The position numbers and the translations under genes are program-made. DNA of 35,622 nt. Origin: a virus. Position 1 is the first letter of the stretch; each line of letters opens with the position of its first letter. Below are positions 1,944 through 22,438 of the stretch, piece after piece. The DNA lies in IMG/VR virus record IMGVR_UViG_3300028419_000011, positions 1 through 35,622 of that record; one strand, 5' to 3'. The notes below the pieces were generated by a model. The model worked only from the letters and a program-made list of their open reading frames with translations. It made no database searches and was not told where the DNA came from.

Positions 1944-2333
1944 TTGTCTGATTACTCGGAACAAAGAAAGAAAGAAGTTAAAGTCCCTAAGAAAAGAGGT
2001 AGACCACCTAAAGCATTAGTACAGTCCAAAAAGAAAGGAGCTAGACCTCCCGGTAGACCTCCGGGTGATAAGGCTATAATGGATGAGTACAAGGCTAGGC
2101 TTCTAGCGTCTCCCAAGTCTCGTAAGGTTTTAGATACTATACTAGATGCTGCACTAGATGATGAGCATAAACATCAAGCTGCTGCTTGGAAACTTCTAGT
2201 AGATAGACTTATGCCACTTTCTTCGTTTGATGCTAGTTCTGGTGGTGGAGATAAGCCTAGCATTAACATTACTATTTCGGGTGTTACTGAAGTAGAGAAC
2301 GTAATTGATGGAGAAGTTATAGATGGCGACTAG
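1944..2333 (+). CDS. AT-hook DNA-binding protein, putative small terminase subunit
   Basis: The 129-aa protein starts at a TTG preceded by a purine-rich AAGGGGG ribosome-binding site. The N-terminus is strongly basic, with an AT-hook core KKRGRPPK (about residues 16-23) and a second GRPPG (about 37-41), which typically bind the minor groove of AT-rich DNA. The middle is predicted helical and the end is acidic. It is the first gene of the virion unit and overlaps the lysozyme gene by 11 bases, with the large terminase following. Size, DNA binding and location fit a small terminase subunit that recognises phage DNA for packaging, but sequence identity to a known TerS was not recognised. A transcription regulator is the alternative. 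Confidence 0.55.
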   Translation: MSDYSEQRKKEVKVPKKRGRPPKALVQSKKKGARPPGRPPGDKAIMDEYKARLLASPKSRKVLDTILDAALDDEHKHQAAAWKLLVDRLMPLSSFDASSGGGDKPSINITISGVTEVENVIDGEVIDGD

Positions 2334-3186
2334 TTTCGGATTAGGTGATGAACCTGTTATTATCGGTGAAGATATATATACCCAAGAGGATGTACAGAAA
2401 GCTGTAAGAGGTGCTGGTTATTTAGGTACTCCTTCGTATACACAGGAAGATGTACAAAGGGCTGTAATGGATGCTGGTTATTTAGATGCCCCTCCTGAGT
2501 TCTCACAACAAGGTGCTATAGCTCAACTAGAGGCTGACCTAATGAATGATATTATGATTAGAGACCAACTTAGGGAAGAAGAGTTGTTAGGTCAACAGAA
2601 TCTAAAAACAGTTAATATAGTACCACCAGTAAGTAAAGAAATGAGTAATACTGATAAAGTTTTAAATACTATACTAAAACATGAAGGCGGTTTCCAAATA
2701 AGCTCTAAAGATAAAGGAAACTATAATAGTGCAGGAGATTTAGTAGGAACTAATTTTGGTATTTCAGCTCCCGTATATGAAGAGTATACTGGTAAAACTC
2801 CTTCGGTTTCAGATATGAAAAATATAACAGAAGATGAAGCTAGAGAAATATATAAAAAATCTTATATAACGCCTGTAACTAAAAACTTAGGTATACCACC
2901 AGAGTCTGATGTTTTTGAGCAAGTAGTTGATATGGCAGTTAATCATGGGTATCGCAACACTGTACGAATTATTCAGAGGGCAATAGGTAACATTAAAGAT
3001 GATGGTAAGGCTGGACCCATTACTAAAAAAGCTATTTTAAAAGCGATAAAAGATAATCCTATTGGTTTTAACAACTCACTAGTAAACTCAAGGTCAAACT
3101 TCTACAAACAAATTGTTAATAAAAACCCAAGCCAACAAGAGTTTATAAAGGGTTGGTTAGGTAGGGCATCATCTTTTATTAAATGA
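2323..3186 (+). CDS. GH108-type lysozyme (N-acetylmuramidase) with tandem N-terminal motif
   Basis: Residues about 110-275 match the glycoside hydrolase 108 muramidase fold. The catalytic HEGGF segment has Glu121, NFGIS follows near 144-148, ITEDEAREIYKKSY near 168-181, and a C-terminal peptidoglycan-binding portion contains RIIQRAIG and DGKAGPITKKAI. It would cleave the glycan backbone of murein. The first 105 residues are not part of the enzyme: they carry two copies of YTQEDVQ-AV--AGYL (from residues 19 and 39) and an acidic helical linker. A similar doubled motif is at the start of the 1279-aa internal virion protein, which hints at a virion-bound enzyme. There is no signal peptide. It overlaps the large terminase gene by 4 bases and lies about 9 kb from the holin. 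Confidence 0.85.
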   Translation: MATSFGLGDEPVIIGEDIYTQEDVQKAVRGAGYLGTPSYTQEDVQRAVMDAGYLDAPPEFSQQGAIAQLEADLMNDIMIRDQLREEELLGQQNLKTVNIVPPVSKEMSNTDKVLNTILKHEGGFQISSKDKGNYNSAGDLVGTNFGISAPVYEEYTGKTPSVSDMKNITEDEAREIYKKSYITPVTKNLGIPPESDVFEQVVDMAVNHGYRNTVRIIQRAIGNIKDDGKAGPITKKAILKAIKDNPIGFNNSLVNSRSNFYKQIVNKNPSQQEFIKGWLGRASSFIK

Positions 3187-4445
3187 GTAACGACCTCAGT
3201 ATTAAACTACTTCCTTGGCAACAAGAAGTTTGGAATAGTGAAACTAGATTTAAGATAGTAGCTGCTGGTCGACGTACTGGTAAATCCAGACTAGCTGCTT
3301 GGTTACTTATCGTAAATGCTCTACAGCTAGAGAAGGGGCATGTTTTCTACGTAGCCCCTACACAAGGTCAAGCAAGAGATATTATGTGGACTACTCTATT
3401 AGAGTTAGGTCATCCAGTAATCAAGTCTAGTCATATTAACAACCTCCAGATTACATTAGTTAATGGGGCTACCATTAGCTTGAAGGGTGCAGATAGACCA
3501 GAGACTATGCGTGGTGTGTCTCTTAAGTTCTTAGTATTGGATGAATACGCTGATATGAAGCCAGCAGTGTTTGACCAAATCCTTCGTCCTGCCCTAGCTG
3601 ACCAACAAGGTAGTGCTTTGTTTATCGGAACTCCTATGGGTCGTAACCACTTCTATGAGCTGTACAAACAAGCTGAATTAGGAGATGACCCTACACTAGA
3701 GGCTTGGCACTTTACTTCGTATGACAACCCCCTACTAGCAGAAGAAGAGATAGAAGCTGCTAAAAAGACTATGAGTTCTTTTGCGTTTAGGCAAGAGTTC
3801 ATGGCATCGTTTGAGGCAATGGGTAGTGAAATATTTAAAGAAGATTGGGTTAAGTTTAGTGAAGAAGCTCCAGAAATTGGTGACTATTACATTGCTATTG
3901 ACTTGGCTGGTTTTGCAGACGTATCTAAAGCTGCTACATCGAAAGCTAAGAAACTTGACCAAACGGCTATTAGCGTTGTTAAAGTAAATGAAGAAGGGTG
4001 GTACGTAGAAGATATTATCTACGGCAGGTGGGATATTAAAAAGACAGCAGAGAAGATATTTAGGACTGTACTAAAGTATGAACCTATCTCTGTTGGTATT
4101 GAGAAGGGGGCGTTAAAGAACGCTGTACTACCTTATCTTATGGACTTACAAAAGTCTAGGCAGAAGTTCTTTCGTGTAGAAGAACTAACACATGGTAACA
4201 AAAGAAAAATAGATAGGGTCATTTGGGGCTTACAAGGTAGGTTTGAAAATGGTGCTATTACTCTCAACACTGGAGATTGGAACTCAGAGTTCCTAGATGA
4301 ATTATTCCAGTTCCCTAACCCCCTAGTTCACGATGACCTTATCGACTCCCTAGCGTACATAGACCAACTAGCTAAAGTTAGTTACGCGTACGATATAGAG
4401 TATGAAGATGACTTTGAATTTATAGACCCAATAGCTGGATATTAA
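3183..4445 (+). CDS. terL: Terminase large subunit (ATPase-nuclease packaging motor)
   Basis: The 420-aa protein has the two classical terminase domains. The ATPase shows Walker A GRRTGKSR (residues 29-36), Walker B LKFLVLDEYA with Asp120-Glu121, and a coupling motif FIGTPMGR (147-154). The RNase H-like nuclease shows Asp240 in YIAIDLAG, Glu306 in VGIEKGA, and the C-terminal acidic cluster HDDLIDSL (383-390). It pumps DNA into proheads through the portal and cuts the concatemer. It begins inside the lysozyme stop (ATGA overlap) and is followed three bases later by a small virion-type gene and then the portal. The length is short but normal for this group. Confidence 0.95.
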   Translation: MSNDLSIKLLPWQQEVWNSETRFKIVAAGRRTGKSRLAAWLLIVNALQLEKGHVFYVAPTQGQARDIMWTTLLELGHPVIKSSHINNLQITLVNGATISLKGADRPETMRGVSLKFLVLDEYADMKPAVFDQILRPALADQQGSALFIGTPMGRNHFYELYKQAELGDDPTLEAWHFTSYDNPLLAEEEIEAAKKTMSSFAFRQEFMASFEAMGSEIFKEDWVKFSEEAPEIGDYYIAIDLAGFADVSKAATSKAKKLDQTAISVVKVNEEGWYVEDIIYGRWDIKKTAEKIFRTVLKYEPISVGIEKGALKNAVLPYLMDLQKSRQKFFRVEELTHGNKRKIDRVIWGLQGRFENGAITLNTGDWNSEFLDELFQFPNPLVHDDLIDSLAYIDQLAKVSYAYDIEYEDDFEFIDPIAGY

Positions 4446-4448
4446 TGT

Positions 4449-4814
4449 ATGGATATGGAAAAAGTAATACCTTTAGACCTGCCTGATAGGGATGAACTAC
4501 CTAACCTAATCCCTTTCGACCCAGAGACTATGAAACCACAAGATATAGGTTTTGGTCAACCATCTACAGAAATAATAATCTCTGAGGATTCTCCAGATGG
4601 AAAAGTATGGAATATACCTTCTCTATGGTGGAGCCCTGAAGGAGACCCTACTTATGTTTCTCCAAGGACAGCAGCAAGACTAGCGTATAAGTACGAAAAA
4701 GAAAATGAGGTCAAGTTTCCAAGGTTTCCAAAAGGGGCTTATGAAGAGGCTTCGGAAGCAGCTAAAAAAAGCTCCTCTGAAGGAGGGGCAACTAACAGAA
4801 AACTAGCCAACTAG
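4449..4814 (+). CDS. Small conserved virion-region protein (121 aa)
   Basis: The C-terminal two-thirds reads IPSLWWSPEGDP, then V-PRTAARLAYKYEKE, then KFPRFPKGAYEEASEAAKKS. This resembles a short module often met in phage structural and tail-associated proteins, in which a conserved IPT/S segment is followed by two Ala-rich helices. The N-terminal 40 residues are acidic and Pro-rich. It is soluble, has no cysteine, and sits between terL and portal with an 8-base gap to the portal. A structural or packaging-accessory role is inferred from position. The start could also be the second ATG, two codons in. Confidence 0.65.
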   Translation: MDMEKVIPLDLPDRDELPNLIPFDPETMKPQDIGFGQPSTEIIISEDSPDGKVWNIPSLWWSPEGDPTYVSPRTAARLAYKYEKENEVKFPRFPKGAYEEASEAAKKSSSEGGATNRKLAN

Positions 4815-4822
4815 GGTAAAGT

Positions 4823-6781
4823 ATGGAAAATGAAGATAATCTATTGAACAACATTAACCTAGAACAGTGGGTTATGGACAAGTGTGAAGGGTGGCGTGAC
4901 CACTATGACGATAACTATCGTGTATCACATGAAGAGTATTACAGATTATGGCGTGGTATTTGGTCTAAGGAAGATAGCCTAAGACAAACTGAACGCTCTC
5001 GTATTATTACACCTGCACTACAGCAAGCAGTAGAATCGTCTGTAGCTGAGGTAGAAGAGGCAACCTTTGGTAGAGGTAGCTGGTTCGATATTAAAGACGA
5101 TATGCAAGACACTACAGGCTCTCAAGACGTAGAGTTTTTAAAGAATCAACTTTCTGAAGATATGACTTTTGCCAAAGCAAGAACTTGTATTTCAGAATGT
5201 CTTCTTAACGCTGCTGTATACGGTACAGGTATTGGTGAAATCTATATAGAAGAAACCAAAGAAAACATACCAGCTATGCAACCTACACCAGATGGTCAAA
5301 TGCAAGCTGTAGGTGTCATAGAGCGTGATAGGTTCTTAGTTAAGCTACGCCCTATTATGCCTCAGAACTTCCTTATCGACCCGCTAGCTACATCTATCGA
5401 AGAAGCTCTAGGTTGTGCAGTAGATATGTACGTACCACTACATCAAGTAGAGATAGATATTGAAAAAGGTGTCTATCGTGACGTAGATGTAGAGACTGTT
5501 GCAGCAGATGATGACCTAGAAGCTGACCAAGATATTACAATAAACGTAGATGATAGGGTTCGCCTTACTCGCTACTACGGATTAGTTCCGAAAGCCCTGT
5601 TCGATGAGGCAGAAGGTGAAGAACTAGAAGAAGATGAGATTGCTGTAGCGTTAGGTGAAGAACAAGAACAAGAATCTGGCTATATTGAGGCTATGGTAGT
5701 AATTGCTAACGGAGATACCCTACTTAAAGTAGTAGCTAACCCGTTTATGATGCAAGATAGACCTATTGTAGCGTTCAAATGGGATGCAGTACCTAGTAAA
5801 TTCTGGGGTCGTGGTATCTGTGAGAAGGGTTATAACAGTCAAAAAGCCCTAGATACAGAGCTACGTGCGCGTATAGACGCTCTTGCACTTACTGTACACC
5901 CTATGATGGCAGTAGATGCTAGTCGTATGCCTAGAGGCTCTCAGTTTGAGATACGCCCGGGTAAAACTTTGCTTACTAACGGTAATCCAGCAGAGATATT
6001 ACAACCATTTAAGTTTGGTGCTGTAGATAACATTACCTTTACACAAGGCGCACAGCTACAAAACATGGTACAGCAAGCTACAGGTGCAGTAGATACTGTT
6101 GGTATGCAGAACGCTATGAATGGTGAAGCAACTGCTGCTGGTATTTCTATGTCGTTAGGTGCGATTATCAAGAGGCATAAGCGTACGTTACTTAACTTCC
6201 AAGATAACTTCCTAATTCCCTTCGTTACTAAAGCTGCACATCGCTATATGCAGTTTGACCCACAGCTTTACAAAGCACAAGACCATAAGTTTGTAGCTTC
6301 TAGTTCTCTCGGCATCATTGCTCGTGAGTATGAAGTCACACAGCTAGTACAGCTTTTACAAACTATGCCTCCTGAAAGTCCTATGTACAGCTTCCTAGTT
6401 CAATCTATTGTTGAGTCTATGAATCTTACTAAACGGGAACAAATCCTTGCAGGTATCGAGCAAGCTAATCAGCCAAACCCACAAGCACAACAAGAAGAGG
6501 TTATTCGTAAGCAGTTTGAGCTTGAGATTGCCAAGGCTAACTTGCAACAAATCCAACTACAAAATGCAGAGATACAAAGTCGAGTTCAACAAAACAATGT
6601 TGAGACACAGCTACTACCTGTGGCAGAAGAGACTGACCGTATTGAAGCTATTGCTAAGACCCTACCACCTGATGAGTTTGCACAAGCTGTCAAGATGGCA
6701 GAGCTTAGCTTAAAACAGCAAGAGTTAAAAGTAAAAGAAGATATTGTAGAAATGCAAATGAGGAGACCTAATGGTAACTAA
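4823..6781 (+). CDS. Portal protein (head-tail connector)
   Basis: The 652-aa product has the size and composition of podovirus portals: an N-terminal helical segment with RDHYDDNYRVSHEEYYRLW and RSRIITPALQQAVESSVAE, a central segment PRNFLID-like (MPQNFLIDPLAT) and KFWGRGICEKGYNSQKALD, and a long Gln-rich C-terminal helix from about residue 530 that would form the barrel. The portal is the twelve-subunit ring at one capsid vertex through which DNA enters and leaves and to which terminase and the adaptor dock. Its place after terL and before the scaffold and capsid genes is canonical. Its last 11 bases overlap the start of a 46-aa gene. Confidence 0.9.
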   Translation: MENEDNLLNNINLEQWVMDKCEGWRDHYDDNYRVSHEEYYRLWRGIWSKEDSLRQTERSRIITPALQQAVESSVAEVEEATFGRGSWFDIKDDMQDTTGSQDVEFLKNQLSEDMTFAKARTCISECLLNAAVYGTGIGEIYIEETKENIPAMQPTPDGQMQAVGVIERDRFLVKLRPIMPQNFLIDPLATSIEEALGCAVDMYVPLHQVEIDIEKGVYRDVDVETVAADDDLEADQDITINVDDRVRLTRYYGLVPKALFDEAEGEELEEDEIAVALGEEQEQESGYIEAMVVIANGDTLLKVVANPFMMQDRPIVAFKWDAVPSKFWGRGICEKGYNSQKALDTELRARIDALALTVHPMMAVDASRMPRGSQFEIRPGKTLLTNGNPAEILQPFKFGAVDNITFTQGAQLQNMVQQATGAVDTVGMQNAMNGEATAAGISMSLGAIIKRHKRTLLNFQDNFLIPFVTKAAHRYMQFDPQLYKAQDHKFVASSSLGIIAREYEVTQLVQLLQTMPPESPMYSFLVQSIVESMNLTKREQILAGIEQANQPNPQAQQEEVIRKQFELEIAKANLQQIQLQNAEIQSRVQQNNVETQLLPVAEETDRIEAIAKTLPPDEFAQAVKMAELSLKQQELKVKEDIVEMQMRRPNGN

Positions 6782-6911
6782 GCAAGAACTTGATGGGGTG
6801 CTGATAGAAATCAACAACATCCTGAAAGCAATAGATAAACGTATTACAGATTTAGAAAAGGCTTATACACCTAAGCCAGCAACAACTAGAAAGACTACAA
6901 CTAAAAAATAA
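6771..6911 (+). CDS. Small coiled-coil/Lys-tailed protein (46 aa)
   Basis: An ATG at 6771, inside the portal gene's last codons, opens a 46-codon frame ending in TAA at 6909-6911. The start follows an AGGAGA ribosome-binding site at 6761-6766, which is strong support that it is translated. Residues 4-31 (KQELDGVLIEINNILKAI and on) make an amphipathic helix likely to be a coiled coil, and the last 15 residues are Thr/Lys-rich and basic. The function is unknown; a head-assembly accessory is possible from position only. Confidence 0.6.
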   Translation: MVTKQELDGVLIEINNILKAIDKRITDLEKAYTPKPATTRKTTTKK

Positions 6912-6944
6912 ACATAACCACACATACACCTATTGGGAGAATGT

Positions 6945-7199
6945 ATGACACCAGAAAATGTAAAACATTACGAGAACTACTTTGACTTATTTAACACAGA
7001 TGGCTGGTCACAGCTTATGGAGCAAGTTCAAGTAGATAAGGATAACTTCCAGATTGAAGCTATTGCAGATGAAAAGACTTTGTATCAAACACAAGGACAA
7101 CTTTACGTCTTAAATACTTTAATCAACATGGAAGATATGGTCAGGGCAGCGTACGACTCTATTCTAATTAGCGAGAGGGAAGCCGTTAATGGCGAATAG
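6945..7199 (+). CDS. Conserved hypothetical head-region protein (84 aa)
   Basis: I chose ATG 6945 because a GGGAGA ribosome-binding site ends four bases before it; an in-frame TTG at 6933 would add four residues and lies before that site. The protein is acidic and helical, with YENYFDLFNTDGWSQLMEQV near the start. Small proteins of this kind are common between portal and scaffold in marine podoviruses, but their function is unknown to me. The last 11 bases overlap the zinc-ribbon gene that follows, which suggests translational coupling. Confidence 0.65.
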   Translation: MTPENVKHYENYFDLFNTDGWSQLMEQVQVDKDNFQIEAIADEKTLYQTQGQLYVLNTLINMEDMVRAAYDSILISEREAVNGE

Positions 7200-7404
7200 A
7201 ATCTATGACTTTAAATGCTCAAACGGACATATTACTGAACGCTTTATAGGCTCTGAAACACAGACTATAGAGTGTCCTGAATGTGACCAAGATGCAAAGC
7301 GGGTAATTTCTAAATGTTCTTTTGTATTAGATGCTGTATCTGGAGACTATCCTGGAGCAACTATGAAGTGGGCAAGAGAACATTCGAAAGCCGCTAAGAA
7401 ATAA
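7189..7404 (+). CDS. FmdB-like zinc-ribbon protein (71 aa)
   Basis: The sequence begins YDFKCSNGH and continues to ECPECDQDAKRVIS, giving the C-x3-H / CxxC arrangement of small FmdB-type putative regulatory zinc ribbons. Only one full CxxC pair is present; the first pair is C-SNGH, so Cys and His probably complete the site. Such proteins are frequent in phage structural regions, where their role is undefined. It overlaps the previous gene by 11 bases and is followed by a 50-base gap before the scaffold gene. Confidence 0.75.
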   Translation: MANRIYDFKCSNGHITERFIGSETQTIECPECDQDAKRVISKCSFVLDAVSGDYPGATMKWAREHSKAAKK

Positions 7405-7454
7405 TCTTTTAATTTTCCACAATACTTATTTAAGAGTACGGAGTTTATAATATA

Positions 7455-8276
7455 ATGGCAACAATACTAGATACACCAGAGGAATTTAACGAAGAAAATC
7501 TACAAGAAGGCGAAGAGCTTTCTACGTTTGAAGAGCAAGAATCCGTAGAGGACAACCTTGAACAAGAACAAGTAGCAGAAGAACAACCTAAAGAAGAGTA
7601 TATTCTACCAGATAAATATAAAGATAAGTCTGTAGCAGAAATTGTACAGATGCACCAAGAAGCTGAAAAGCTAGTTGGTAGACAAGGCTCAGAAGTAGGA
7701 GAACTTCGTAAGGTTGTAGACGACTTTATTAAAGCAAACCTCGACAACAATACCCACGAAAAACAAGCTGAGGTTGAAGAGATTGATTTCTTTGAAAAAC
7801 CTAAAGAAGCTATTGCACAATCTATATCATCTAATTCTGATATTCAAGAAATTAAACAGATGAAGATAGACATGGCTCGTAGAGATGCTATGAATAGGTT
7901 GGAGCAAGCGCACCCTAACTTTATGGAGACTGCTAAGTCAGAGGGCTTCATAGAATGGGTTAAGGCTTCTAAAGTACGGACAGAACTTTTACAACGAGCT
8001 GACAGTAACTTTGATTTTGATGCAGCAGATGAGCTTCTTTCTACTTGGAAAGAACGAACTCAGGCATCTACAAAGGCACAGGAAGTTGTTGAAAAAGATA
8101 GAGGACAACAGCGTAAGGCTGCTTCTTCTGGCTCTGCTAAAGGAACTGGAGAAAGTAAATCTAAGAAAATCTATCGGCGGTCTGATATTATTAACTTAAT
8201 GCAAAACAATCCTGCACGATACTTAGAATTGTCTGATGAATTAACACAGGCATATTCAGAAGGTAGGGTGCGATAA
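7455..8276 (+). CDS. Capsid assembly scaffolding protein
   Basis: The 273-aa protein is highly acidic in its first 60 residues (Glu/Gln-rich), then predicted to be almost entirely helical, and ends with a basic, Ser/Gly-containing linker and the short helical tail IYRRSDIINLMQNNPARYLE. That profile, and its place directly upstream of the major capsid gene, are typical of podovirus scaffolding proteins. It would guide coat subunits into a prohead and leave before or during packaging. Positively charged helical ends of scaffolds usually contact coat protein; here the C-terminal helix would do so. Sequence conservation in this class is low, so the call rests on composition and position. Confidence 0.85.
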   Translation: MATILDTPEEFNEENLQEGEELSTFEEQESVEDNLEQEQVAEEQPKEEYILPDKYKDKSVAEIVQMHQEAEKLVGRQGSEVGELRKVVDDFIKANLDNNTHEKQAEVEEIDFFEKPKEAIAQSISSNSDIQEIKQMKIDMARRDAMNRLEQAHPNFMETAKSEGFIEWVKASKVRTELLQRADSNFDFDAADELLSTWKERTQASTKAQEVVEKDRGQQRKAASSGSAKGTGESKSKKIYRRSDIINLMQNNPARYLELSDELTQAYSEGRVR

Positions 8277-9335: not shown

Positions 9336-10652
9336 TTGAGTATATACAGAGGTTCAGGTGGTTCAGGAGATGCTACTTCTGATGCTACCATAAATGAAGT
9401 AACAGAGTTAGTACAAGATGCTAATGAGTATAAAAATGAAGCAGCTGCTTCTGCATCTAACGCTGCAACAAGTGCTAGTAATGCTGCTACTTCTGAATCT
9501 AATGCTAGTACCTCAGAAACCAATGCAAGCTCTAGCGAAACAAATGCTGCCACCAGCGAAGCTAATGCAGCAACTTCAGAAACTAATGCAGCTACGTCTG
9601 CTACCAGTGCTTCTACTTCAGCGTCTAATGCGTCAACTTCTGCATCGGCAGCACAGACTGCACAGACAGCAGCAGAAACAGCACAAGCTAGTGCAGAGAC
9701 AGCAGAGACTAATGCTAGTGCATCTGCCACATCAGCAAGCAATTCAGCAAGTACAGCAACTACACAAGCTGGTATAGCTACTACTAAAGCTAGTGAAGCA
9801 TCTACCTCAGCAACTAATGCAGCAACTAGTGAAACCAATGCAGCGAATAGCGCAACAAGCGCAGCAACTTCTGCTACAAATGCAGCTAATAGTGCATCAA
9901 CTGCATCAACAGCAGCAAGCAATGCTTCTACTTCAGAGTCCAATGCTAGTACAAGTGAAACAAATGCAGCAGCCTCAGCAACGTCTGCAAGCTCCTCTGC
10001 CAGCTCCGCATCCTCTAGTGCTACTAGTGCAGCAGGTAGTGCAACAACTGCCACTACAAAGGCTTCTGAGGCGGCTACAAGCGCATCTAATGCCAGCACA
10101 TCAGAAACTAATGCTGCAAACTCTGCAAGCGCAGCTAGTACATCTGCTACTAATGCTAGTACATCAGAGAGTAACGCAGCTACATCAGCTACAAATGCAG
10201 CTTCTTCTGCTAGTGCAGCATCGGATAGTGCTACAGAAGCCTCCACATATGTTGCAGACCAAACAGGCAACGCAGGTAAGTTTTTACAAACAAACGGTAG
10301 TGTTGTTTCATGGCAACCTGCTGTAGAGAAAACATCTTCAACAGGCTCTGCGGTAATTCCATCAGGCACGGAAGCACAACGCGATGGTTCACCAGTTAAT
10401 GGTTACTTTCGTTACAATTCAGACGCTGGTCAGTTTGAAGGCTATGCTGCTGGTGCTTGGGGCGAGATAGGCGGTGGCGGTGGTGGTGCTACAGGCGGCG
10501 GTGGCGACCAAATATTTGTTGAGAACTCACAGACAGTGACAACAGACTATACAATCCCATCAGGTAAAAGTGCGTCAAGTGCGGGACCTATTACAATAAA
10601 TACAGGTGTTACAGTGACTATTTCTTCAGGTAGTGTGTGGGTGGTGTTATGA
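9336..10652 (+). CDS. Tail fibre with long Ala/Ser/Thr heptad-repeat shaft
   Basis: The 438-aa protein starts at TTG with AGGAGA just upstream. Residues 1-40 form a capsid/tail-attachment-like head, residues 41-306 are 38 uninterrupted heptads of the type SNAATSE/TNAATSA, and the remainder is a tip. The tip contains GNAGKFLQTNGSVVSW, a FRYNSDAGQFEGYAAGAW segment, a glycine-rich turn and a beta-rich end (TITINTGVTVTISSG type). Such Ala/Ser/Asn heptad shafts occur in phage side fibres and form extended trimeric helical rods. It would bind the host surface. The gene overlaps the next by 4 bases, so the fibre cassette is coupled. A long open frame on the other strand is an artefact of the repeat. 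Confidence 0.82.
   Translation: MSIYRGSGGSGDATSDATINEVTELVQDANEYKNEAAASASNAATSASNAATSESNASTSETNASSSETNAATSEANAATSETNAATSATSASTSASNASTSASAAQTAQTAAETAQASAETAETNASASATSASNSASTATTQAGIATTKASEASTSATNAATSETNAANSATSAATSATNAANSASTASTAASNASTSESNASTSETNAAASATSASSSASSASSSATSAAGSATTATTKASEAATSASNASTSETNAANSASAASTSATNASTSESNAATSATNAASSASAASDSATEASTYVADQTGNAGKFLQTNGSVVSWQPAVEKTSSTGSAVIPSGTEAQRDGSPVNGYFRYNSDAGQFEGYAAGAWGEIGGGGGGATGGGGDQIFVENSQTVTTDYTIPSGKSASSAGPITINTGVTVTISSGSVWVVL
9456..10253 (+). repeat. 38 coding heptad repeats (21-bp period)
   Basis: The stretch encodes 38 seven-residue units in phase from residue 41 to 306 of the tail fibre. Ala sits at the third position in nearly every unit. Higher-order copies also exist: TTKASEA-TSA-NA-TSETNAANSA occurs near 9782 and again near 10057, but with many different synonymous codons. 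The amino-acid repeat is therefore much better kept than the DNA repeat. Confidence 0.85.
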
Positions 10653-11017
10653 GTCAATTAAACGTAGACAGCATTAAAGACAGAACAGGTACTGACCAAC
10701 CAGACATTGTAGGCGTTGCTAAAGCGTTTGTTAATTTTGATGGAACAGGCACTGTAACCATTCGCAATGGGTTTAATGTAAGCAGTATTACTGATAATGG
10801 CACAGCTAATTACACTGTTAATTTTACTAATGCTATGGTAGACGATAATTACACTGCTACATACGGAGCTAAGTATGCTACAACCACTATTGCTGGGTTG
10901 GTTTGCGAGACGACGGGTACGACAAGGGCTACGACTAGTTTAGGTATTCGAACTTCTAATTCCTCAAGTGCCGCAGCCGTAGATTTACCAGCAGTACAGG
11001 TAGCCATATTCCGCTAA
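10649..11017 (+). CDS. Fibre-domain paralogue 1 (122 aa)
   Basis: I start at ATG 10649, which overlaps the tail-fibre stop as ATGA; an upstream in-frame GTG would add four residues. The N-terminus MSQLNVDSIKDRTGTDQPD is followed by the domain FVNFDGTGTVTIRNGFNVSSITDNGTANYTVNFTNA-type sequence, split here as AFVNFDGTGTVTIR and NVSSITDNGTANYTVNFT, then a variable beta-rich part ending VAIFR. The same domain recurs in the genes at 11477 and 11836. It is common in marine phage fibre tips, and probably forms a trimeric receptor-binding or adaptor tip at the end of the fibre. Binding target unknown. Confidence 0.75.
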   Translation: MSQLNVDSIKDRTGTDQPDIVGVAKAFVNFDGTGTVTIRNGFNVSSITDNGTANYTVNFTNAMVDDNYTATYGAKYATTTIAGLVCETTGTTRATTSLGIRTSNSSSAAAVDLPAVQVAIFR

Positions 11018-11243: not shown

Positions 11244-11477
11244 ATGATTAAAGTAGACGTAAACAAAGCCAAAGACATTACACACGAGAAACGTCGTTCT
11301 AAACGCTCTGAAGAGTTCGCGCCATTAGATGTGCAGGCAACTATCCCAGCCAAAGCAGTAGAAGCTGAAGCAGCTCGTCAAGCTATTCGTGACAAGTATG
11401 ACGCTATGCAAGCTGAGATTGATGGTGCAACATCTGCTGACAAGCTGAAAGAAGTGATTGAACGCGAGGCATTGTAA
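11244..11477 (+). CDS. Small helical tail-fibre-associated protein (77 aa)
   Basis: I choose ATG 11244 because AGGAG lies eight bases before it; an ATG at 11223 would add seven residues and overlap the preceding gene. The protein begins MIKVDVNKAKDITHEKRRSK and has EEFAPLDVQA followed by two long charged helices. Proteins with an HEKRR...EEFAPLDV start occur beside the TNDEGG-type protein in other phages, so the pair is likely functional together near the tail. The stop overlaps the next ATG by one base (TAATG), indicating coupled translation. Confidence 0.65.
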   Translation: MIKVDVNKAKDITHEKRRSKRSEEFAPLDVQATIPAKAVEAEAARQAIRDKYDAMQAEIDGATSADKLKEVIEREAL

Positions 11478-11815
11478 TGGCTGGCTCTTTAAAGTTTGAC
11501 ACTTGGTTGAACGATGACAGCACAGAGAATTATAAGTGTCGTGCTTGGGTGAATTTCAACGGCACAGGTACAGTGGCTATTCGTGCGTCTGGTAATGTAA
11601 GTAGTATTACAGATAATAGTACTGGTGATTACACAGTGAACTTTACTAATGCTTTAGAGGATGCTAATTATACATGTGTGGAATCATGTGGCAGTACAGG
11701 CTTGAGTAGATTTGGCTCGCCAGAGGCTTTTACAACAGTATCAGTGGATGTCAAATGCCAGAGTTCGGTATCCGTTTATGACCCAGAATTTATGTGTGTA
11801 ACAATATTCCGCTAA
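11477..11815 (+). CDS. Fibre-domain paralogue 2 (112 aa)
   Basis: The N-terminus (MAGSLKFDTWLNDDSTENYK) differs from its two relatives, but residues 22-60 carry the same domain, AWVNFNGTGTVAIRASGNVS then SITDNSTGDYTVNFTNAL. The C-terminal part is variable, contains five cysteines counting the N-terminal one and ends VTIFR like paralogue 1. A role as a receptor-binding tip or decoration is inferred. Its cysteines are unusual for the cassette and could form disulphides in the virion or simply be unpaired. Confidence 0.72.
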   Translation: MAGSLKFDTWLNDDSTENYKCRAWVNFNGTGTVAIRASGNVSSITDNSTGDYTVNFTNALEDANYTCVESCGSTGLSRFGSPEAFTTVSVDVKCQSSVSVYDPEFMCVTIFR

Positions 11816-11838
11816 GCCCTAAAGGAGTTAATTAAATG
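11811..11838 (+). repeat. Copy A of a conserved cassette boundary with ribosome-binding site
   Basis: GCTAAGCCCTAAAGGAGTTA followed by ATTAAATG carries the stop of paralogue 2, a strong AAAGGAG ribosome-binding site and the start of paralogue 3. A near copy is at 12255-12284 in front of the coiled-coil membrane gene. Confidence 0.6.
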
Positions 11839-12213
11839 TCACAATTAAACATAAGCACCTTAGCCAACTTAGCAGGCAGTGAGTCTACGCCGATAGCTGA
11901 CGTAGTAAATGGCAGTGCAAGAGCATGGGTGAACTTCAATGGAACAGGCACTGTAGCAATACGGGCTAGTTATAATGTAAGCTCTATCACTGATATTGGT
12001 ACAGGTAATTATGCTATTAATTTTGCTACAGATATGGCAGATATTAATTACTGCCCGACCTCTGGCACTATAGACCCTGCTTTTAGTTCAAACTCTTTAA
12101 CTGGTTATATTGAAAATACCAGCGTTAGCTCAGCAAGGTTTACAGCGAAAGCCTCCAATGGGGGTAGCTATGACATGTCAGCTTACTATGTCTCATTTCA
12201 CGGGAATATTTAA
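11836..12213 (+). CDS. Fibre-domain paralogue 3 (125 aa)
   Basis: The start MSQLNISTLANLAGSES resembles paralogue 1, and the core AWVNFNGTGTVAIRASYNVS then SITDIGTGNYAINFATDM resembles paralogue 2, so it looks chimeric between the two. The C-terminus differs and ends YYVSFHGNI rather than IFR. The gene is followed by a short non-coding stretch that still contains what appears to be the old IFR-type end of an earlier cassette. It probably forms an alternative fibre tip or a co-assembling subunit. Confidence 0.72.
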   Translation: MSQLNISTLANLAGSESTPIADVVNGSARAWVNFNGTGTVAIRASYNVSSITDIGTGNYAINFATDMADINYCPTSGTIDPAFSSNSLTGYIENTSVSSARFTAKASNGGSYDMSAYYVSFHGNI

Positions 12214-12284: not shown

Positions 12285-12515
12285 GATTTCCAAGATTTAT
12301 TTAATGCAACATTCGCTCTTATATCTATATTTGTTGGCTGGTATCTAAGAGCAGTATGGGATGCTATTAGCAGATTACGTTTAGACATTCAGCAGATAGA
12401 GAGAAATATCCCTAACGTGTATCTTAGACGTGATGATTTTCAAATAGCTCTATCTGACATTAAAGACACTCTTAACCGAATAGAAGATAAACTAGACAGT
12501 AAGGCAGACAAATGA
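12282..12515 (+). CDS. Small single-membrane-segment coiled-coil protein, possibly lysis-related
   Basis: The 77-aa protein has one N-terminal hydrophobic segment (FNATFALISIFVGWYLRAVW, residues about 8-27) and then a charged helix with RLRLDIQQIERNI and a second coil DIKDTLNRIEDKLDSKADK. Such anchored coiled coils are found beside holins in many marine phages and may act as an i-spanin or holin partner, but that is inference. It overlaps the holin gene by 4 bases, which supports co-production and shared timing. It has no lipobox. Confidence 0.65.
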   Translation: MDFQDLFNATFALISIFVGWYLRAVWDAISRLRLDIQQIERNIPNVYLRRDDFQIALSDIKDTLNRIEDKLDSKADK

Positions 12516-12853
12516 TACAGCTAATAACTCTTGTTGGTGAGTTAGCCACTACATGGATGCAAGGCAAAGCAGAAGAAGCTAAGGTCAAGCAGGAAGTAAA
12601 GATTAAAGCTATGCAGTCCGAAGAGAACTGGGAAAAAATGATGGCTGAAGGTAGTAAGACATCTTGGAAAGATGAATGGTTCGTTATTGTGCTTTCTATC
12701 CCTATGATTGGTGCGTTCATCCCTAGCTTAGTACCCTACATTCAAGAGGGTTTCGCAGTTTTAAACTCAATGCCAGAATACTACAAAGGTTTTCTAGCAG
12801 CAGCTATAGCAGCTTCCTTTGGAATCAAGGGCTTAGCTAACTGGAAGAAATAA
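12512..12853 (+). CDS. Holin (3-TM family)
   Basis: The 113-aa protein follows the pattern of the three-transmembrane holin family: an N-terminal hydrophobic stretch, a charged linker KVKQEVKIKAMQSEENWEKM, then SKTSWKDEWFVIVLSIPMIG, PSLVPYIQEGFAVLN, PEYYKGFLAAAIAASFG and KGLANWKK. The SW-DE segment and the P-x-Y(Y)-x5-L-aasFG end are the parts I recognise. It would form lesions in the inner membrane at the end of infection and release the lysozyme. The lysozyme gene is far upstream, so lysis functions are split in this genome. A promoter for the following genes lies directly after it. Confidence 0.8.
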   Translation: MIQLITLVGELATTWMQGKAEEAKVKQEVKIKAMQSEENWEKMMAEGSKTSWKDEWFVIVLSIPMIGAFIPSLVPYIQEGFAVLNSMPEYYKGFLAAAIAASFGIKGLANWKK

Positions 12854-13579: not shown

Positions 13580-13932
13580 TGCGGGCTAAGAGTATACTAA
13601 CAGAAAACTTAACTACTGCTGCTCTTACTGATAGTACAGCGTTATTGTATACTGTACCACCTAATACTAAAGCTAAGTGGGTATTAGCATTTATATCTAA
13701 TGGTTCTGGTTCTACTATCTCTAACGTACATTTAGAAATATCTAACGGTGTAGATATAGTTGTACTAGGTTCTAAGTCTCTAGGTTCTGGAGATTTTATA
13801 CAGCTTAAACAAGATGGTGGCTATGTAATGTTAGAAGCTGGTTATGAGATAAGAGGCAATGCTGGTTCTACTGGTGTTAGTTGTATTTTAACTGTGGAAG
13901 AAACTTCTAGTACGGTGACTTATAATGGCTAA
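13579..13932 (+). CDS. Small beta-rich virion protein (117 aa)
   Basis: The protein is Ser/Thr/Gly-rich with alternating hydrophobic residues predicting a beta-sandwich; landmarks are TVPPNTKAKWVLAFISNGSG and LGSGDFIQLKQDGGYVMLE. It lies between the adaptor and nozzle genes, overlapping both. Small beta proteins in this place are usual in marine podoviruses and may decorate or seal the tail or head. I do not recognise a named family. Confidence 0.65.
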   Translation: MRAKSILTENLTTAALTDSTALLYTVPPNTKAKWVLAFISNGSGSTISNVHLEISNGVDIVVLGSKSLGSGDFIQLKQDGGYVMLEAGYEIRGNAGSTGVSCILTVEETSSTVTYNG

Positions 13933-15493
13933 ACCTTTACAAGCTGCATCAATCGTAGCCCCCGGTTTTTTTGGTCTTAATACTCAAGAGGCTGGTGTAA
14001 CACTAGAAGCTGGCTTTGCCTTACAAGCTGACAACTGTGTAATAGATAAGTATGGTCGGTTAGGTAGTCGTAAAGGTTGGGCGTACCGTACAACTCAATT
14101 GGGCGGTGTTGATAATGCTAACGATGGTGTTAATTTATTAGGCACTCACATCTCTTTAGATTTATCTGGTGTTAAAAGAAACTTGTCTTGGAACGCCACT
14201 ACATTTTATAAAGGTTATAGCAATTTAACAGCTATTACTCCTAGTACAACAGATACTATCTCTGCTGGTAACTGGACTGCTGCCAGCCTTAATGACAGAA
14301 CTTACTTCTTTCAACGAGGTTACAAGCCTTTAGTATATACAAACGAGACTACTACAGATGAGTTTAAGTCTATAGACACTTTTACTGGGTATGATGGTAC
14401 ACCACCACAGGCTAACATAGTTATGTCTGCATACGGGCGTTTATGGGCTGCTGATACTAACTCTAATAAAACAGTAGTTTACTTTTCTGACCTGTTAGAT
14501 GGTACTAAATGGGGTTCAGGTAGTGCTGGTCAACTAAACATAGCTGGTACGTTTGCTAAGAACAGTGATGTTATTACTGGGTTAGGCGCACATAACGGTT
14601 TCTTAGTAGTATTCTGTAAGAACTCTATCATGTTGTTTCAAGATAGAGATAGTTTTGAGGCGAGCTTCGATGTTACTACACTCTCTCTAGTAGAGACTAT
14701 TGAAGGTATTGGTTGCATATCTCACAACACTATACAGAATGTTGGCGATGATATTATGTTCTTATCATCTACAGGTGTTAGGTCTTTAGGTAGAACTATA
14801 CAAGAGAAGTCACAACCATTAAGAGATTTATCTAAAAACGTACGTGATGATTTGATTACGTTTGTAGAGAATGAAGGTACAGACACAAACATTAAAGCTG
14901 TGTACTGTCCTAACTTTGCTTTCTATTTACTTTACTTTCCTAGTGCTAGTGTTGCTTACGCTTTTGATACCAGAAGTCCTTTACAAGATGGCTCTCTTAG
15001 AATTACTAAGTGGATAGAAATAACTCATACTAACTTTGTTTATGATTCTGATGAACGCAAGTTACTATTCTGCCAAGCTAATGGTTTAGCTGAATACTTT
15101 GGTTCTCAGGATAATGGTAGTGCATTTAACTTTAAGTATTACACTAACTACTTTGACTTAGGTAATAGTAATATAGCTAAGATAGCTAAAAGGTTGTGTG
15201 TAACATTGATTGCACCAGATAACCAAACATTCGTAACTAAACTAGGCTTTGACTACTCTACTAAATACTTTAGCTACCCTTACGTTATTGAAGGAGAGGG
15301 TACACCCTACTACTTTGGTGAGGATGAATATACAGTAGCGGAGTACACTGGGGGTATTAGTATTAGAACTATAAGTAACCCTGTTGGCGGTAGTGGTACA
15401 GTTATTCAAGGTGGTTTTGAAGCAGAGATAAATGGTGCGCCACTCAGTATTCAAAGACTTGATGTATTTATTAAATCTGGAAGAACACAATAA
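13925..15493 (+). CDS. Tail tubular protein B / nozzle
   Basis: The 522-aa protein opens with SIVAPGFFGLNTQEAGVTLE, then DNCVIDKYGRLGSRKGW, a signature of podovirus nozzle and P22 gp10-type tail proteins (PGF-GLN ... N-V-D--G-L--R-G). The rest is beta-rich, as expected of a beta-propeller-based hexameric tail tube. It is shorter than T7 gp12. It would bind below the adaptor and form the DNA exit channel that docks with fibres. It starts 8 bases inside the previous gene. Confidence 0.82.
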   Translation: MAKPLQAASIVAPGFFGLNTQEAGVTLEAGFALQADNCVIDKYGRLGSRKGWAYRTTQLGGVDNANDGVNLLGTHISLDLSGVKRNLSWNATTFYKGYSNLTAITPSTTDTISAGNWTAASLNDRTYFFQRGYKPLVYTNETTTDEFKSIDTFTGYDGTPPQANIVMSAYGRLWAADTNSNKTVVYFSDLLDGTKWGSGSAGQLNIAGTFAKNSDVITGLGAHNGFLVVFCKNSIMLFQDRDSFEASFDVTTLSLVETIEGIGCISHNTIQNVGDDIMFLSSTGVRSLGRTIQEKSQPLRDLSKNVRDDLITFVENEGTDTNIKAVYCPNFAFYLLYFPSASVAYAFDTRSPLQDGSLRITKWIEITHTNFVYDSDERKLLFCQANGLAEYFGSQDNGSAFNFKYYTNYFDLGNSNIAKIAKRLCVTLIAPDNQTFVTKLGFDYSTKYFSYPYVIEGEGTPYYFGEDEYTVAEYTGGISIRTISNPVGGSGTVIQGGFEAEINGAPLSIQRLDVFIKSGRTQ

Positions 15494-17689: not shown

Positions 17690-18586
17690 ATGGCTGGACT
17701 ATTTGATTTTAAATCAGCAGAAGATATACTAAAGGAGAGGCAGGATGCAACTCGTAAAAATGTTATGGAAGCCTTTAACCAACCGGGGCAATATAAGGTT
17801 AGGGGAGAGCGTGCAGCAAATGCCGTAGGTAAGGCTTTAGGCTTACTTGGTGGTAAGTTATTTGCAGATAGTCCAGAAGAACAAGTGGCTGGACAAATGC
17901 AAAGAGCTAATCAACTTGCACAATCTTTAAAGCCTGTAGAGGGAGAGTCACAATCCCAGTTCTATAATAGAATAGCAGTAAGTTTTAATGATAATGGCTA
18001 CTCTCAAAACGCTTTAAGGGCTCTGTCACTAGCTAAACAGGCAGAGGAGGCTGAGGCTAAAGAAGCTCAGAGACTGAAGGAGCGAGGTGAGTTGTCCGCT
18101 TTCCAAAAAGCACAGATTGATAACCAAGAAGCTAGGATTAAACTGGCACGGGACGAATTGAACCTTTTTAATCCCGGAGGAGGAGCAACCCCACCATCAG
18201 CAAATAACTCATATAAACCCGGAGACGTAATTACAAATGCTGAAGGTAAACAAGTCGTGGTACAACCAAATGGAAGTCTTCTTCCTTTAGCGGTGTCTAG
18301 TGCTCAGGAAGAAGTAGCAGGGCAAGGGTATACTCACGAACCTAGTCAGTTTGATAAAACCCTAGATTTTCTTTATAGTCCTTTTAAAGGTTTGGGAGAG
18401 GCTATGGATAGTCGGGAAAGGGTTGGTCAAGTACAAATGGTTTCAAGGGCTTTAGAAAAGAAGAGTTATAGAGATAGAGATATAGATGCTATGAGAGATT
18501 TAGTCAAACTTCCACAAGAAGAAAGTGGGCTAACAAAAGCAGAGTATAATAAAGCTACAGTGTTAGTAACAGCTAACCCAGAATAA
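17690..18586 (+). CDS. Internal virion protein (gp15-like position)
   Basis: The 298-aa protein is helical, charged and Gln-rich, with MAGLFDFKSAEDILKERQDA at the start and LRALSLAKQAEEAEAKEAQR near the middle. A Pro/Gly linker near residues 165-185 separates it from a more globular C-terminal third. It is a soluble protein with no cysteine and no membrane segment. Its place between the gp14-like protein and the giant internal protein matches T7 gene 15, although T7 gp15 is much larger (about 750 aa). Identity is by synteny. Confidence 0.6.
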   Translation: MAGLFDFKSAEDILKERQDATRKNVMEAFNQPGQYKVRGERAANAVGKALGLLGGKLFADSPEEQVAGQMQRANQLAQSLKPVEGESQSQFYNRIAVSFNDNGYSQNALRALSLAKQAEEAEAKEAQRLKERGELSAFQKAQIDNQEARIKLARDELNLFNPGGGATPPSANNSYKPGDVITNAEGKQVVVQPNGSLLPLAVSSAQEEVAGQGYTHEPSQFDKTLDFLYSPFKGLGEAMDSRERVGQVQMVSRALEKKSYRDRDIDAMRDLVKLPQEESGLTKAEYNKATVLVTANPE

Positions 18587-18598
18587 GAAGGGTATTAA

Positions 18599-21500
18599 AT
18601 GGTATATTCTTATACACAAGAAGAAATTGATGCAGCATTTGGTAATATAAGTACACCTACAGAAACACCCCAAGATGGTACATTTAGTTATACTCAAGAA
18701 GAGTTTGACCAAGCCTTTAGTCCTTCTGGGGGAGACATAGCAACAGGACTTCTTGCTGAATTAGGTGTAGCTACTGGTGGACAGATGGGGGCAATCGCAG
18801 CGGGGGCAGCTATAGGTGGACCTGTAGGTGCGGGTGTAGCTATTGCAGGTACTTTTGGGGCTGGGTTTCTAGGTAGTTTGGTTGCTCAAGAGATAGAGGG
18901 TGGAGAGACTTCTATTGGTAGGGCAACAGCAGGTGGCTTCTTAAACTTTGTAAAAGGTAGTAAATTACTAGAGGGTGTTAATGCTAGTACAAAGATTACT
19001 CCAGAATTAGTAAGGCAAGTAGCAGCATCAGAAGCTAAACGTGGTGCTGCTTTCGGTGCTGGAGAATCTACAGTTGCATCTTTAATAGATACAGGACAAC
19101 TACCAGACGCAGAAAGATTTTTAATGAGTGCTGCTGCTGGTACTATCTTTGGTGGTGGTTTAGGAGCAATTCTACCTAAGGCTACTAAGAGCTTAAGTAA
19201 GTTTGCTGGCAAGACTCCTGATGAGATAGACTTAGATATTACCAATGGTAAGATAACAGAAGAAGATGTAAATGACGTAGAAGAGTTAAACCAACTAGAG
19301 TTATTTAGTGCTGAAGATACCTCTTTGATTGATGCCTACGAACCACGCAAAGTAGAACCTACTACTGAAAAACCAACATTAGAAAAAGAATCTATTACAA
19401 CAGTAGAAGATTACATAAGAAGAAATAGAAGGTTACAACAGAAGATAAAAGACGATGAGGTTAAAGCAGAGTTTGAGGAGAGTAGTAAACTAAAAGATGT
19501 TGACTTTTTTTCTTCTGAGGTTGCTCCAGAAGTTAAGGTTAGGGTTAGTGAAGTAGCAGATACAGTTGCTCAAAAAGAAGCTAACAAAATTCTTGCTGAT
19601 GCTACAAACACAGAAGGTAGCCTCTTCCAAAAAGCCCTTTCTTATTTAGTTCCTAGTAGGATAACTGGACAAGGTGTTCATAATGAAATCTTCCAAGCTA
19701 ATAAAGAGTTATCTGCTGTAAGGGATAGTGCTAGTAAGTTTGCTAGAAACATAACTGAACACTTAGAGCAAAACCCACAAGATGCTGCATTTGTAAATAG
19801 GTTCTTAGTAACAAGAACTATAGAGCCTGAATACTCTAACACTAGATTATCTGCCACTCTTAAAATGTTTGACAAGGAGCTTACTAACCTACAGAAAAAA
19901 TTAGTAAATCAACTTAGTACAGAAAGATTTAATCATTTAGATGTCCAAGAACAAAATGCTTTATTGCGTACTGTTTCAGAGTCTATACTTAAGCCAGAGC
20001 AAAGCTATGTTACTAGGGAGTATAGGGCGTTTATAGATAAGGGCTTTAAGTTTGATGCTAAACAAAAAGAATTAGCTCGTAAAGAGTTGATACAAAAATA
20101 CCTTATTGACAATCCAAAAGAGTCTTTAGAAAAAGCGGAGGCGTTTGCTAATGCAAGACTAAGGACTTTAATAAATGAGTCTAACAGGGCTAGAGGGCTT
20201 GGTGGTAATACCAGAGACAATATCTCAAGACCTAACAATGGAGTAATTAGATTTAAGGAAGATTTAGGCGTAGAAGAAAGAAAGTTTTTAGGTGAGGTAA
20301 TAGACCCAGCAGAGCGTATCAGGGGTAGTTTAGAGGGTGTTGGTAAACTTGTATATAGAAATCAAGTTGATATAAATACTGTAGACCAACTTAAAAAACT
20401 AGGACTACTATCAGATAACCCAGTTAATGATAACACTTACGTTAAGTTAGAATTACCTAGTGGTGTTGTCACAAAAGGCTATGTACCTAACGTAGTTCAA
20501 GCTGCTCTCAATAGGTCTTTTGCATCTGGTTCTTTAGATGATAGTGCAGACGTTACTTCTAGTTTAGTAAGAGATTTATTTTACTCTGCTATTGGTGCAT
20601 CAAAAGCTGTTAAGGTTATTCTTAACCCACCATCGTATGCTGTTAATGCTTATGGTGCTATGACTACAATGTTGGGTATGGGTATGAACCCCTTTTCTAA
20701 AGGTACTGCCAGAGGTTTAAGGTATGCTGCATCTGAGTATAGTTGGCTAGAGAAAAAACTAACTGGCGATACTGAGTTGGGTGTTAAAGAATTGTATCTA
20801 GCTAGAGATGAAATGAAGAAGTATGGTTTAGGTCCTGCTAACGTACTAGAATCTGATATTAGAGATACATTAAACCAAGGCTATTTCTCAAAAAAGTTAA
20901 GTAATATATTTGACCCACTTAGTAAAGCGTACTCCGCTACAGATACAGCAGCTAGGTTTGGTGTATGGACTCACAACCAACAAAGACTTTCTAAAATGTT
21001 TCCTCAAGCTAGTAGAGAACAAATTAAAAGGTCTGCTGCTCAACTTACAAATGACACCTTCCAGAACTACGAGAAGTTAAGCCCTATTGTAAGGGCTGCT
21101 CAAAGGATTGGGGTATTCCCACAGTTCGTAGCCTTTACAGCAGAGTTCTCTAGGAACATATATAACCAAGTAAGGTTTGCTAAACAAATGGCTACAGGTA
21201 AGTTTGGTCAAGAGCTTGGGCTAGATGTATCTAAGGCTAATCAGAAAGCTATGCAAGCAGAGGGTGTAACTAGGTTAGTAGCTTTATCTGGAGTAGTAGC
21301 AGGTACAGAGGCTATGAGACAAGGTTACAACTCTATGAATAATGTAGATGCTGAGACAGAAGCTATGCTTAAAGAGACTGCTGTTGCAGACTTTGATAAG
21401 AACAAGTCTTTGTTGTTTACGTACGACCCAGAAACAAAGGAAGGTTCTTACGCCAATATGTCTTACATTGTACCTCATGCTATTATATCTGAGGTGATGT

Positions 21501-22438
21501 CATCTGCCTTTAAAGATGAACCTTTATCTAACCTAACAGGTATTTTTGTAGACCAGTTTGTAGGTGAGGGTAACTTTGTAGGTCTTAGTGCTTATAGGGC
21601 TATAGATAATAGGGATGCTTACGGTAAGACTATTTCTGATGACCCTGACCAAATGGAGAGCTTTAAAAACCAGCTAGTCTACTTTGTAAATGAAACATTT
21701 AAACCGGGTGCAGTTAGAGAAGGTAATAAGATAGTAGACTCTTTAGTAAGTGATGACCCAAGATACAACTTTGCTGAAATTATGAAGAGGCAGTTAGGTA
21801 ATCGTATAGTAAAGTTTAATGTAAATGACCAAGTAAGGCACAAGATAAGGCATGACTCTAAAGCTATGCGTAACTTAAAAAGTGATTACACTACTGCAAG
21901 AGACTATGATAAGGACTTAACACCTGAAGCATTAGCTAAAGTGTATAAAGATTCTAACGAAGTAAGGGCAAGAGTCTTTGAGCAACTTTCCTCTAAAGAT
22001 GAGAGTTTAAGAAGGTTGGGTTATACAGAGGAAGAAAGAATAGAAGTTTTAAAAGAGGGTGGTATATCTTCTAAAGATATTATTGGCTTATTAGATAGGC
22101 AGTATGTACCAATACCTATCAACAGGGCAGAGTCTACTTCAGAGTTGTTTGATAACTCTATAGCTGGATTACCTAGGGCACAACAAATAAGTAAGATGAG
22201 AGAAGTGTCACAAGGTAATCCATTAGTATTTAAGAAACTAGTTACAGAGTTTAAACGTAGAATAAAAGAAAGTAGGCTTAACCTAGATAGCAGAGATAAG
22301 TTAATTAAAAACTTAAGTGTTAGTGATAGAGCTGACATGATTATGGATAATCCATCTTTATTACAAGAGTTTTATAGAAAGGGTTTGATAAGTAAATCTG
22401 TAATACTAGAACTAAAAGCAAGAGGGTTTAGACAATAA
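18599..22438 (+). CDS. Giant internal virion / ejection protein (1279 aa, gp16-like)
   Basis: This is the longest gene. Residues 1-45 hold two copies of YTQEE-(I/F)-D-A (from residues 5 and 31). Residues about 48-100 form a small-residue membrane-active stretch (GGQMGAIAAGAAIGG and on). The rest is largely helical with many charged coils, as in T7 gp16 (1318 aa), which enters the cell and drives DNA translocation. I see no lytic transglycosylase motif at the N-terminus, unlike T7 gp16, so murein cleavage may be supplied by the GH108 lysozyme, which carries the same N-terminal motif. Arginine codons are mainly AGA/AGG. The gene starts 13 bases after the previous stop with a GAAGGG ribosome-binding site. 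Confidence 0.8.
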   Translation: MVYSYTQEEIDAAFGNISTPTETPQDGTFSYTQEEFDQAFSPSGGDIATGLLAELGVATGGQMGAIAAGAAIGGPVGAGVAIAGTFGAGFLGSLVAQEIEGGETSIGRATAGGFLNFVKGSKLLEGVNASTKITPELVRQVAASEAKRGAAFGAGESTVASLIDTGQLPDAERFLMSAAAGTIFGGGLGAILPKATKSLSKFAGKTPDEIDLDITNGKITEEDVNDVEELNQLELFSAEDTSLIDAYEPRKVEPTTEKPTLEKESITTVEDYIRRNRRLQQKIKDDEVKAEFEESSKLKDVDFFSSEVAPEVKVRVSEVADTVAQKEANKILADATNTEGSLFQKALSYLVPSRITGQGVHNEIFQANKELSAVRDSASKFARNITEHLEQNPQDAAFVNRFLVTRTIEPEYSNTRLSATLKMFDKELTNLQKKLVNQLSTERFNHLDVQEQNALLRTVSESILKPEQSYVTREYRAFIDKGFKFDAKQKELARKELIQKYLIDNPKESLEKAEAFANARLRTLINESNRARGLGGNTRDNISRPNNGVIRFKEDLGVEERKFLGEVIDPAERIRGSLEGVGKLVYRNQVDINTVDQLKKLGLLSDNPVNDNTYVKLELPSGVVTKGYVPNVVQAALNRSFASGSLDDSADVTSSLVRDLFYSAIGASKAVKVILNPPSYAVNAYGAMTTMLGMGMNPFSKGTARGLRYAASEYSWLEKKLTGDTELGVKELYLARDEMKKYGLGPANVLESDIRDTLNQGYFSKKLSNIFDPLSKAYSATDTAARFGVWTHNQQRLSKMFPQASREQIKRSAAQLTNDTFQNYEKLSPIVRAAQRIGVFPQFVAFTAEFSRNIYNQVRFAKQMATGKFGQELGLDVSKANQKAMQAEGVTRLVALSGVVAGTEAMRQGYNSMNNVDAETEAMLKETAVADFDKNKSLLFTYDPETKEGSYANMSYIVPHAIISEVMSSAFKDEPLSNLTGIFVDQFVGEGNFVGLSAYRAIDNRDAYGKTISDDPDQMESFKNQLVYFVNETFKPGAVREGNKIVDSLVSDDPRYNFAEIMKRQLGNRIVKFNVNDQVRHKIRHDSKAMRNLKSDYTTARDYDKDLTPEALAKVYKDSNEVRARVFEQLSSKDESLRRLGYTEEERIEVLKEGGISSKDIIGLLDRQYVPIPINRAESTSELFDNSIAGLPRAQQISKMREVSQGNPLVFKKLVTEFKRRIKESRLNLDSRDKLIKNLSVSDRADMIMDNPSLLQEFYRKGLISKSVILELKARGFRQ

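Follow-up and report, generated by a model that had tools for sequence, protein, structure and literature searches.

Our analysis reveals two proteins with doubled YTQE-type units near their N-termini in the DNA of an uncultured marine-type phage, and we give about even chances to the view that each doublet serves as an N-terminal adaptor specific to the lineage, that both use one type of unit, and that their likeness reflects convergence rather than a proven common partner. The window, that is, the whole stretch of 35,622 nucleotides analyzed, was represented by 43 non-overlapping chosen genes (10,833 aa). One of the two proteins is a 287-aa lysozyme (2323..3186; + strand, as for all coordinates written in this form) with YTQEDVQKAV at residue 19 and YTQEDVQRAV at residue 39. 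The other, a giant protein of 1279 aa (18599..22438), carries YTQEEIDAAF at residue 5 (18611..18640) and YTQEEFDQAF at residue 31 (18689..18718). The span of the lysozyme doublet, 2377-2487, agrees with the original prediction, which went on to propose that the repeat could be a common tag that packages both proteins into the virion.

The four units contain every YTQE encoded by the 43 genes, and they are also the only matches in this gene set to [YF][TS]xE[ED] followed by a hydrophobic residue. As 10-mers, the repeats within the two proteins have self-scores of 47 and 42, far above shuffled sequences (maximum 35 in 300 null genomes). The match between lysozyme and giant scores 34, which is unremarkable across all gene pairs (null median 33, 95% 37), but comparison of the giant N-terminus with all other N-termini gives p = 0.01, and comparison of doublet with doublet under permutation of columns gives p = 2e-4, the observed value being reached by 0/5,000 permutations. 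A looser 9-residue pattern has 4 occurrences where 0.07 are expected. The two doublets are more alike than composition predicts, and both are N-terminal and restricted to one clade. The repeats differ in extent: in the lysozyme, YTQE is merely the start of a 20-residue unit, YTQEDVQ-AV--AGYL--P (unit 1, YTQEDVQKAVRGAGYLGTPS, 2377..2436; unit 2, YTQEDVQRAVMDAGYLDAPP, 2437..2496), while the unit in the giant has about 10 residues. The five-residue core YTQE[DE] common to both genes might point to a recent copying of the repeat from gene to gene at the DNA level. However, no two copies have the same third positions across the five common codons (Y T Q E E/D), and the likeness ends at the motif, so the resemblance lies at the protein level, with selection acting on the protein, and we reject recent DNA copying as highly improbable.

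In the lysozyme, the doublet belongs to a larger N-terminal module (residues 1-93, 2323..2601) that stands in front of the enzyme. The protein has the murein hydrolase domain expected of an endolysin (Pfam Glyco_hydro_108, 1.6e-16; residues 115-209, 2665..2949) together with a PG_binding_3 match (2.8e-12), and its net charge is divided between -13 in the module and +7 in the catalytic part. Near-identical modules precede four enzymes, with the alignment breaking at residue 94: GH108 (window, L012-L015), two types of Pesticin (L018-L022 and the divergent L016 and L017) and GH24 (L045 and L056). The two GH24 proteins each retain one repeat unit, unit 1 being missing, and their contigs also lack the giant. 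The module is present in 13 viral contigs and was not found in bacterial genomes; searches of cultured phages gave no credible matches to it or to the N-terminus of the giant. Its second half, which includes a conserved long predicted helix (residues 60-93, 2500..2601; predicted helix 62-97), has a pN/pS of 0.06-0.13 wherever the compared pair carries differences at both types of site. Low-confidence helices are also predicted within the repeats (21-30 and 41-50), beginning directly after the T of YTQE; the mean pLDDT of the AlphaFold model is 48.5, and we take the helices as a hint only. From this model we infer that the T may cap a short helix.

The lysozyme gene lies between a putative small terminase (1944..2333; assigned by position and relatives, no Pfam match) and the large terminase (3183..4445; Pfam Terminase_6N, 3.7e-18). 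Phages whose large terminases are 74-85% identical carry bare GH24, M15 peptidases, CHAP+LysM, GH19+LysM or LysM-Pesticin proteins in this slot; G014 (85%) has a bare GH24 and G009 has LysM-Pesticin, and the slot proteins of other relatives begin with LysM or a signal-peptide-like N-terminus. Since sister phages place module-free lysozymes here, the position is most simply read as an endolysin slot, in which the module is dispensable for the endolysin role. The slot as a whole behaves as an exchangeable murein hydrolase cassette of GH108, GH24, Pesticin, CHAP, GH19 or M15 type (window; relatives L084-L162, L263, L266). In a look-up for a holin, a 113-aa protein with long hydrophobic stretches (12512-12853) had phrog_2524, of unknown function, as its sole match. 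The use of LysM or signal-peptide-like N-termini elsewhere in the slot is also what one would expect if the module were only a domain that binds the cell wall or membrane or holds the enzyme, its likeness to the giant being pure chance. The all-pairs 10-mer test fits such a reading; the doublet test does not, and no known binding domain in Pfam or PHROG covers the module, which makes this explanation unlikely.

Elsewhere in the window, most of the product of 13925-15493 is covered by a match to phrog_5107, labeled as an amidase (6.6e-32), and it matches structural families too; the label is probably a mis-annotation, and otherwise the gene would encode a second murein hydrolase. Beside the portal gene, a 121-aa protein (4449-4814) aligns with part of an endolysin PHROG of 2185 positions (2.1e-9), a hint that it has a domain in common with giant phage proteins. 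Also in the window, 10637-11017, 11477-11815 and 11836-12213 encode three small proteins that share A[FW]VNF[DN]GTGTV and look, by this motif, like paralogues arranged in tandem within the tail region.

The giant itself matched no Pfam or PHROG family, and in particular no murein hydrolase in either, in keeping with the earlier suggestion that it lacks a murein-cutting activity of its own. Its affinity emerges at the level of fold. A model of the C-terminal 740 residues, built from a 37-member alignment (mean pLDDT 74.7), matched predicted viral proteins whose annotation includes large polyvalent protein associated domains in Foldseek searches against BFVD (best E 5.9e-21; A0A6J5MWX5, E 3.8e-20; TM about 0.4-0.6, and 0.43-0.59 for the best hits), and a fold search of the PDB gave no match. 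For polyvalent proteins, packaging in the virion and injection along with the DNA have been inferred (PMC5512222); like them, the giant is very large, is encoded beside virion genes and has matching folds in its C-terminal 740 residues. Unlike them, it shows no LPD sequence-profile match: no Pfam LPD was found in the giant of the window, nor does one appear among the families listed for the 37 aligned members, and an LPD38 profile matched none of 7 records in a search whose controls were equally silent. N-terminal repeats are likewise not mentioned in the part of that account consulted. By its modeled fold, the family is polyvalent-protein-like, and its place among virion genes agrees with this. 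Similarity to T7/P22 ejection proteins was limited to one weak match (0.0022) among eight giant-family members, with no PDB match. No member was found in bacterial genomes, and the only relative found among cultured phages is in Phage C75C1, where the tag is absent.

In L269 (G002; 3933-7517) the giant is only 43% identical to that of the window, beside downstream genes that are 85-100% identical, which suggests replacement of the giant by recombination. The protein directly upstream of the giant is almost completely different in the window (17690-18586) and L268 (11460-12470), with 24% identity over 204 residues, in two phages whose giants are 99% identical. As a candidate partner of the tag, this adjacent 298-aa protein was rejected: its G001 copy is 24% identical with the giant at 99%, and so does not co-vary with the tag. 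Downstream of the giant, the window encodes an alkane 1-monooxygenase AlkB-like protein (22859-24037; PDB 8sbb, E 1.4e-29; NYMEHYG motif), which is also found in G002 (95% identical) and G014 (87%) and is absent from that position in G001; a literature search for phage-borne alkB in the role of an auxiliary metabolic gene returned only work on bacterial bioremediation.

Of particular interest is the N-terminus of the giant family. In the window, residues 1-44 (18599..18730, net charge -8) precede a conserved Gly/Ala-rich segment with invariant alignment columns (18731..18904), where the alignable part begins. Across the family, the region before the conserved S-x-G-D-I Gly/Ala-rich stretch is short, hypervariable and acidic: it is net negative in 38 of 39 members and neutral in the other, while the remainder of the proteins is mostly neutral to positive. 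Lineage-specific tandem repeats occur in 10 of 37 distinct N-termini, the window included (p<0.01 versus shuffles); for seven, the p value is the lowest that the test can give, and nowhere else in any of these proteins is there a 69-aa stretch that repeats more strongly than the N-terminus. The repeat units are all different (LTPEEEEELAQLEAEFG, ITFDDE, YDFSGFDEIQ, VFDDIVSQR, IDLSVLDEP, EFGTPV, TATNPxTGE, YTQEExDxAF and others); that of the window is kept as YTQEE[IV]DAAF (first unit) in L003, L004 and L073 and as [YF]TQEE[FVI]DQAF (second unit) in relatives. Lineage-specific N-terminal repeats not exceeded elsewhere in the protein support the idea of a replaceable peptide tag, and by analogy with the capsid targeting sequence of T4 and with P1 DarB the segment looks like a packaging tag. 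N-terminal head-targeting peptides as such are already known. A narrow search of the open-licence literature found neither hypervariable tandem-repeat head-targeting peptides in a polyvalent-like family nor a lysin whose acidic module is independent of its enzyme.

How widely is the unit shared? A relaxed scan, run over 2.9 million viral contigs, detected N-terminal doublets in two further clear cases, and otherwise mostly tail-fibre and unrelated internal matches. One is a giant in which YTDEELYAIAGIEPPQ occurs twice, encoded in the same small, middle, giant gene order (L321); the other is a 112-aa protein (L349). A further N-terminal doublet, of YT-x-E-type units, was seen in L229. The recurrence of YT-x-E-E helices at such N-termini, apparently with independent origins, favors convergence. 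Single motifs of the YTQE[DE] type are present in many unrelated phage proteins, mostly away from N-termini. The occurrence of the motif in many non-virion proteins, which the original prediction had named as evidence against itself, therefore holds for the single motif and does not extend to the N-terminal doublet. A 2035-aa phage protein in L046 (3633-9740) starts MKYIWNNNEYTQEDIDAALEATGQ, a giant with a single N-terminal YTQED helix.

The alternative that the two N-termini form a common docking tag, binding a single head protein, for instance scaffold, core or portal, is a serious one, if less probable than convergence; the lysozyme would enter the head along with the polyvalent giant and cut through the cell wall when the phage infects, and the same enzyme may then double as endolysin. 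The doublet test speaks for it, as do the occurrence of both doublet-bearing genes on one contig, seen in the window and in G042 alone, and the conservation of the module across four enzymes at the low pN/pS given above. The internal proteins IPI-III of T4 similarly keep only their capsid targeting sequence, a short N-terminal peptide that is sufficient for packaging (PMC9026906, PMC3012670). In the giant polyvalent protein DarB of P1, the first 30 residues suffice to direct packaging into the head; the signal is described without removal by a protease, and the Dar proteins are reported to have no consensus N-terminus in common (PMC9024508). The scaffolding columns of P22 are a proposed docking site for ejection proteins. 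On the other side, the unit is unshared in every other lineage tested: no second ORF carried the unit of the giant in the contigs, mostly not known to be complete, of seven other repeat-bearing lineages, and matches between N-termini were significant in 0 of 18 contigs. L019 and L268, from one metagenome, were considered as a single genome and rejected, the exact match covering only 40 bases at a contig end inside a longer overlapping region. Moreover, the lysozyme slot of sister phages works without the module, a variant of the lysozyme carries just one unit, and the lysozyme units begin at residue 19 rather than at the very N-terminus. The tags on the giants of related phages are unrelated to one another and unique to the giant, so a common packaging tag is just one possibility. 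In sum, the proposed tag gains from the likeness of the doublets, their N-terminal position, the replaceable look of the segment in the giant and a module kept independently of its enzyme, and loses from the module-free lysozymes and from tagged giants that stand alone in their contigs.

Returning to convergence, the unit would be a short, acidic helix with the T of YT-Q-E as its cap, and the likeness would come from independent arrival at such a capped-helix peptide. The doublet of the giant would be the form that this lineage gives to a fast-changing tag on a polyvalent-type protein, which we infer to be packaged and injected. While the head assembles, the tag would most likely dock on its scaffold or core, as a capsid targeting sequence would; a candidate partner is a scaffold-like protein (7455..8276) that has a weak PHROG head scaffolding match (0.008) and precedes the major head protein. 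The lysozyme doublet is part of a constant 93-residue module before a swappable murein hydrolase; this module would most likely anchor or position the endolysin, and in its place sister phages have LysM or no such part at all. Two observations weigh on this account: the doublet likeness (p 2e-4) counts against convergence and needs accounting for, and strict conservation of a module with exchangeable cargo is equally expected of a packaging tag. A broader proposal, which we put forward tentatively and regard as doubtful, is that of a podovirus-like group with a protease-free, tandem-repeat capsid targeting tag, in which each lineage would place its own short acidic peptide, repeated, on a polyvalent giant that is packaged, with one lineage or more also tagging an exchangeable lysozyme for co-packaging. 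No prohead protease profile matched among the structural-gene proteins scanned.

How giant proteins are chosen for podovirus heads is poorly understood, and a tag that changes by lineage on a conserved body offers natural experiments by which the docking partner could be identified. Should the same tag recruit the lysozyme, this would be a modular way to arm the virion with any murein hydrolase, and proteins could be loaded into phage heads with a simple tag.

Compared with known systems, the lysozyme resembles modular endolysins (GH108, GH24, Pesticin and LysM fusions) in its fixed N-terminal half, exchangeable catalytic half and slot beside the terminase genes, and differs from them in that the fixed half is acidic, repeat-bearing and predicted to be helical, with no known cell-wall-binding domain. 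The tag of the giant, like the signal of P1 DarB, is N-terminal on a giant of polyvalent type, although the part of the DarB report consulted describes no repeat (PMC9024508). The capsid targeting sequence of T4 is a single copy of 10-19 residues that is cleaved by the prohead protease, whereas the units described here are in tandem and their packaging role is putative; it shares with them an N-terminal position on otherwise unrelated proteins and is conserved while its cargo diversifies (PMC9026906, PMC3012670).
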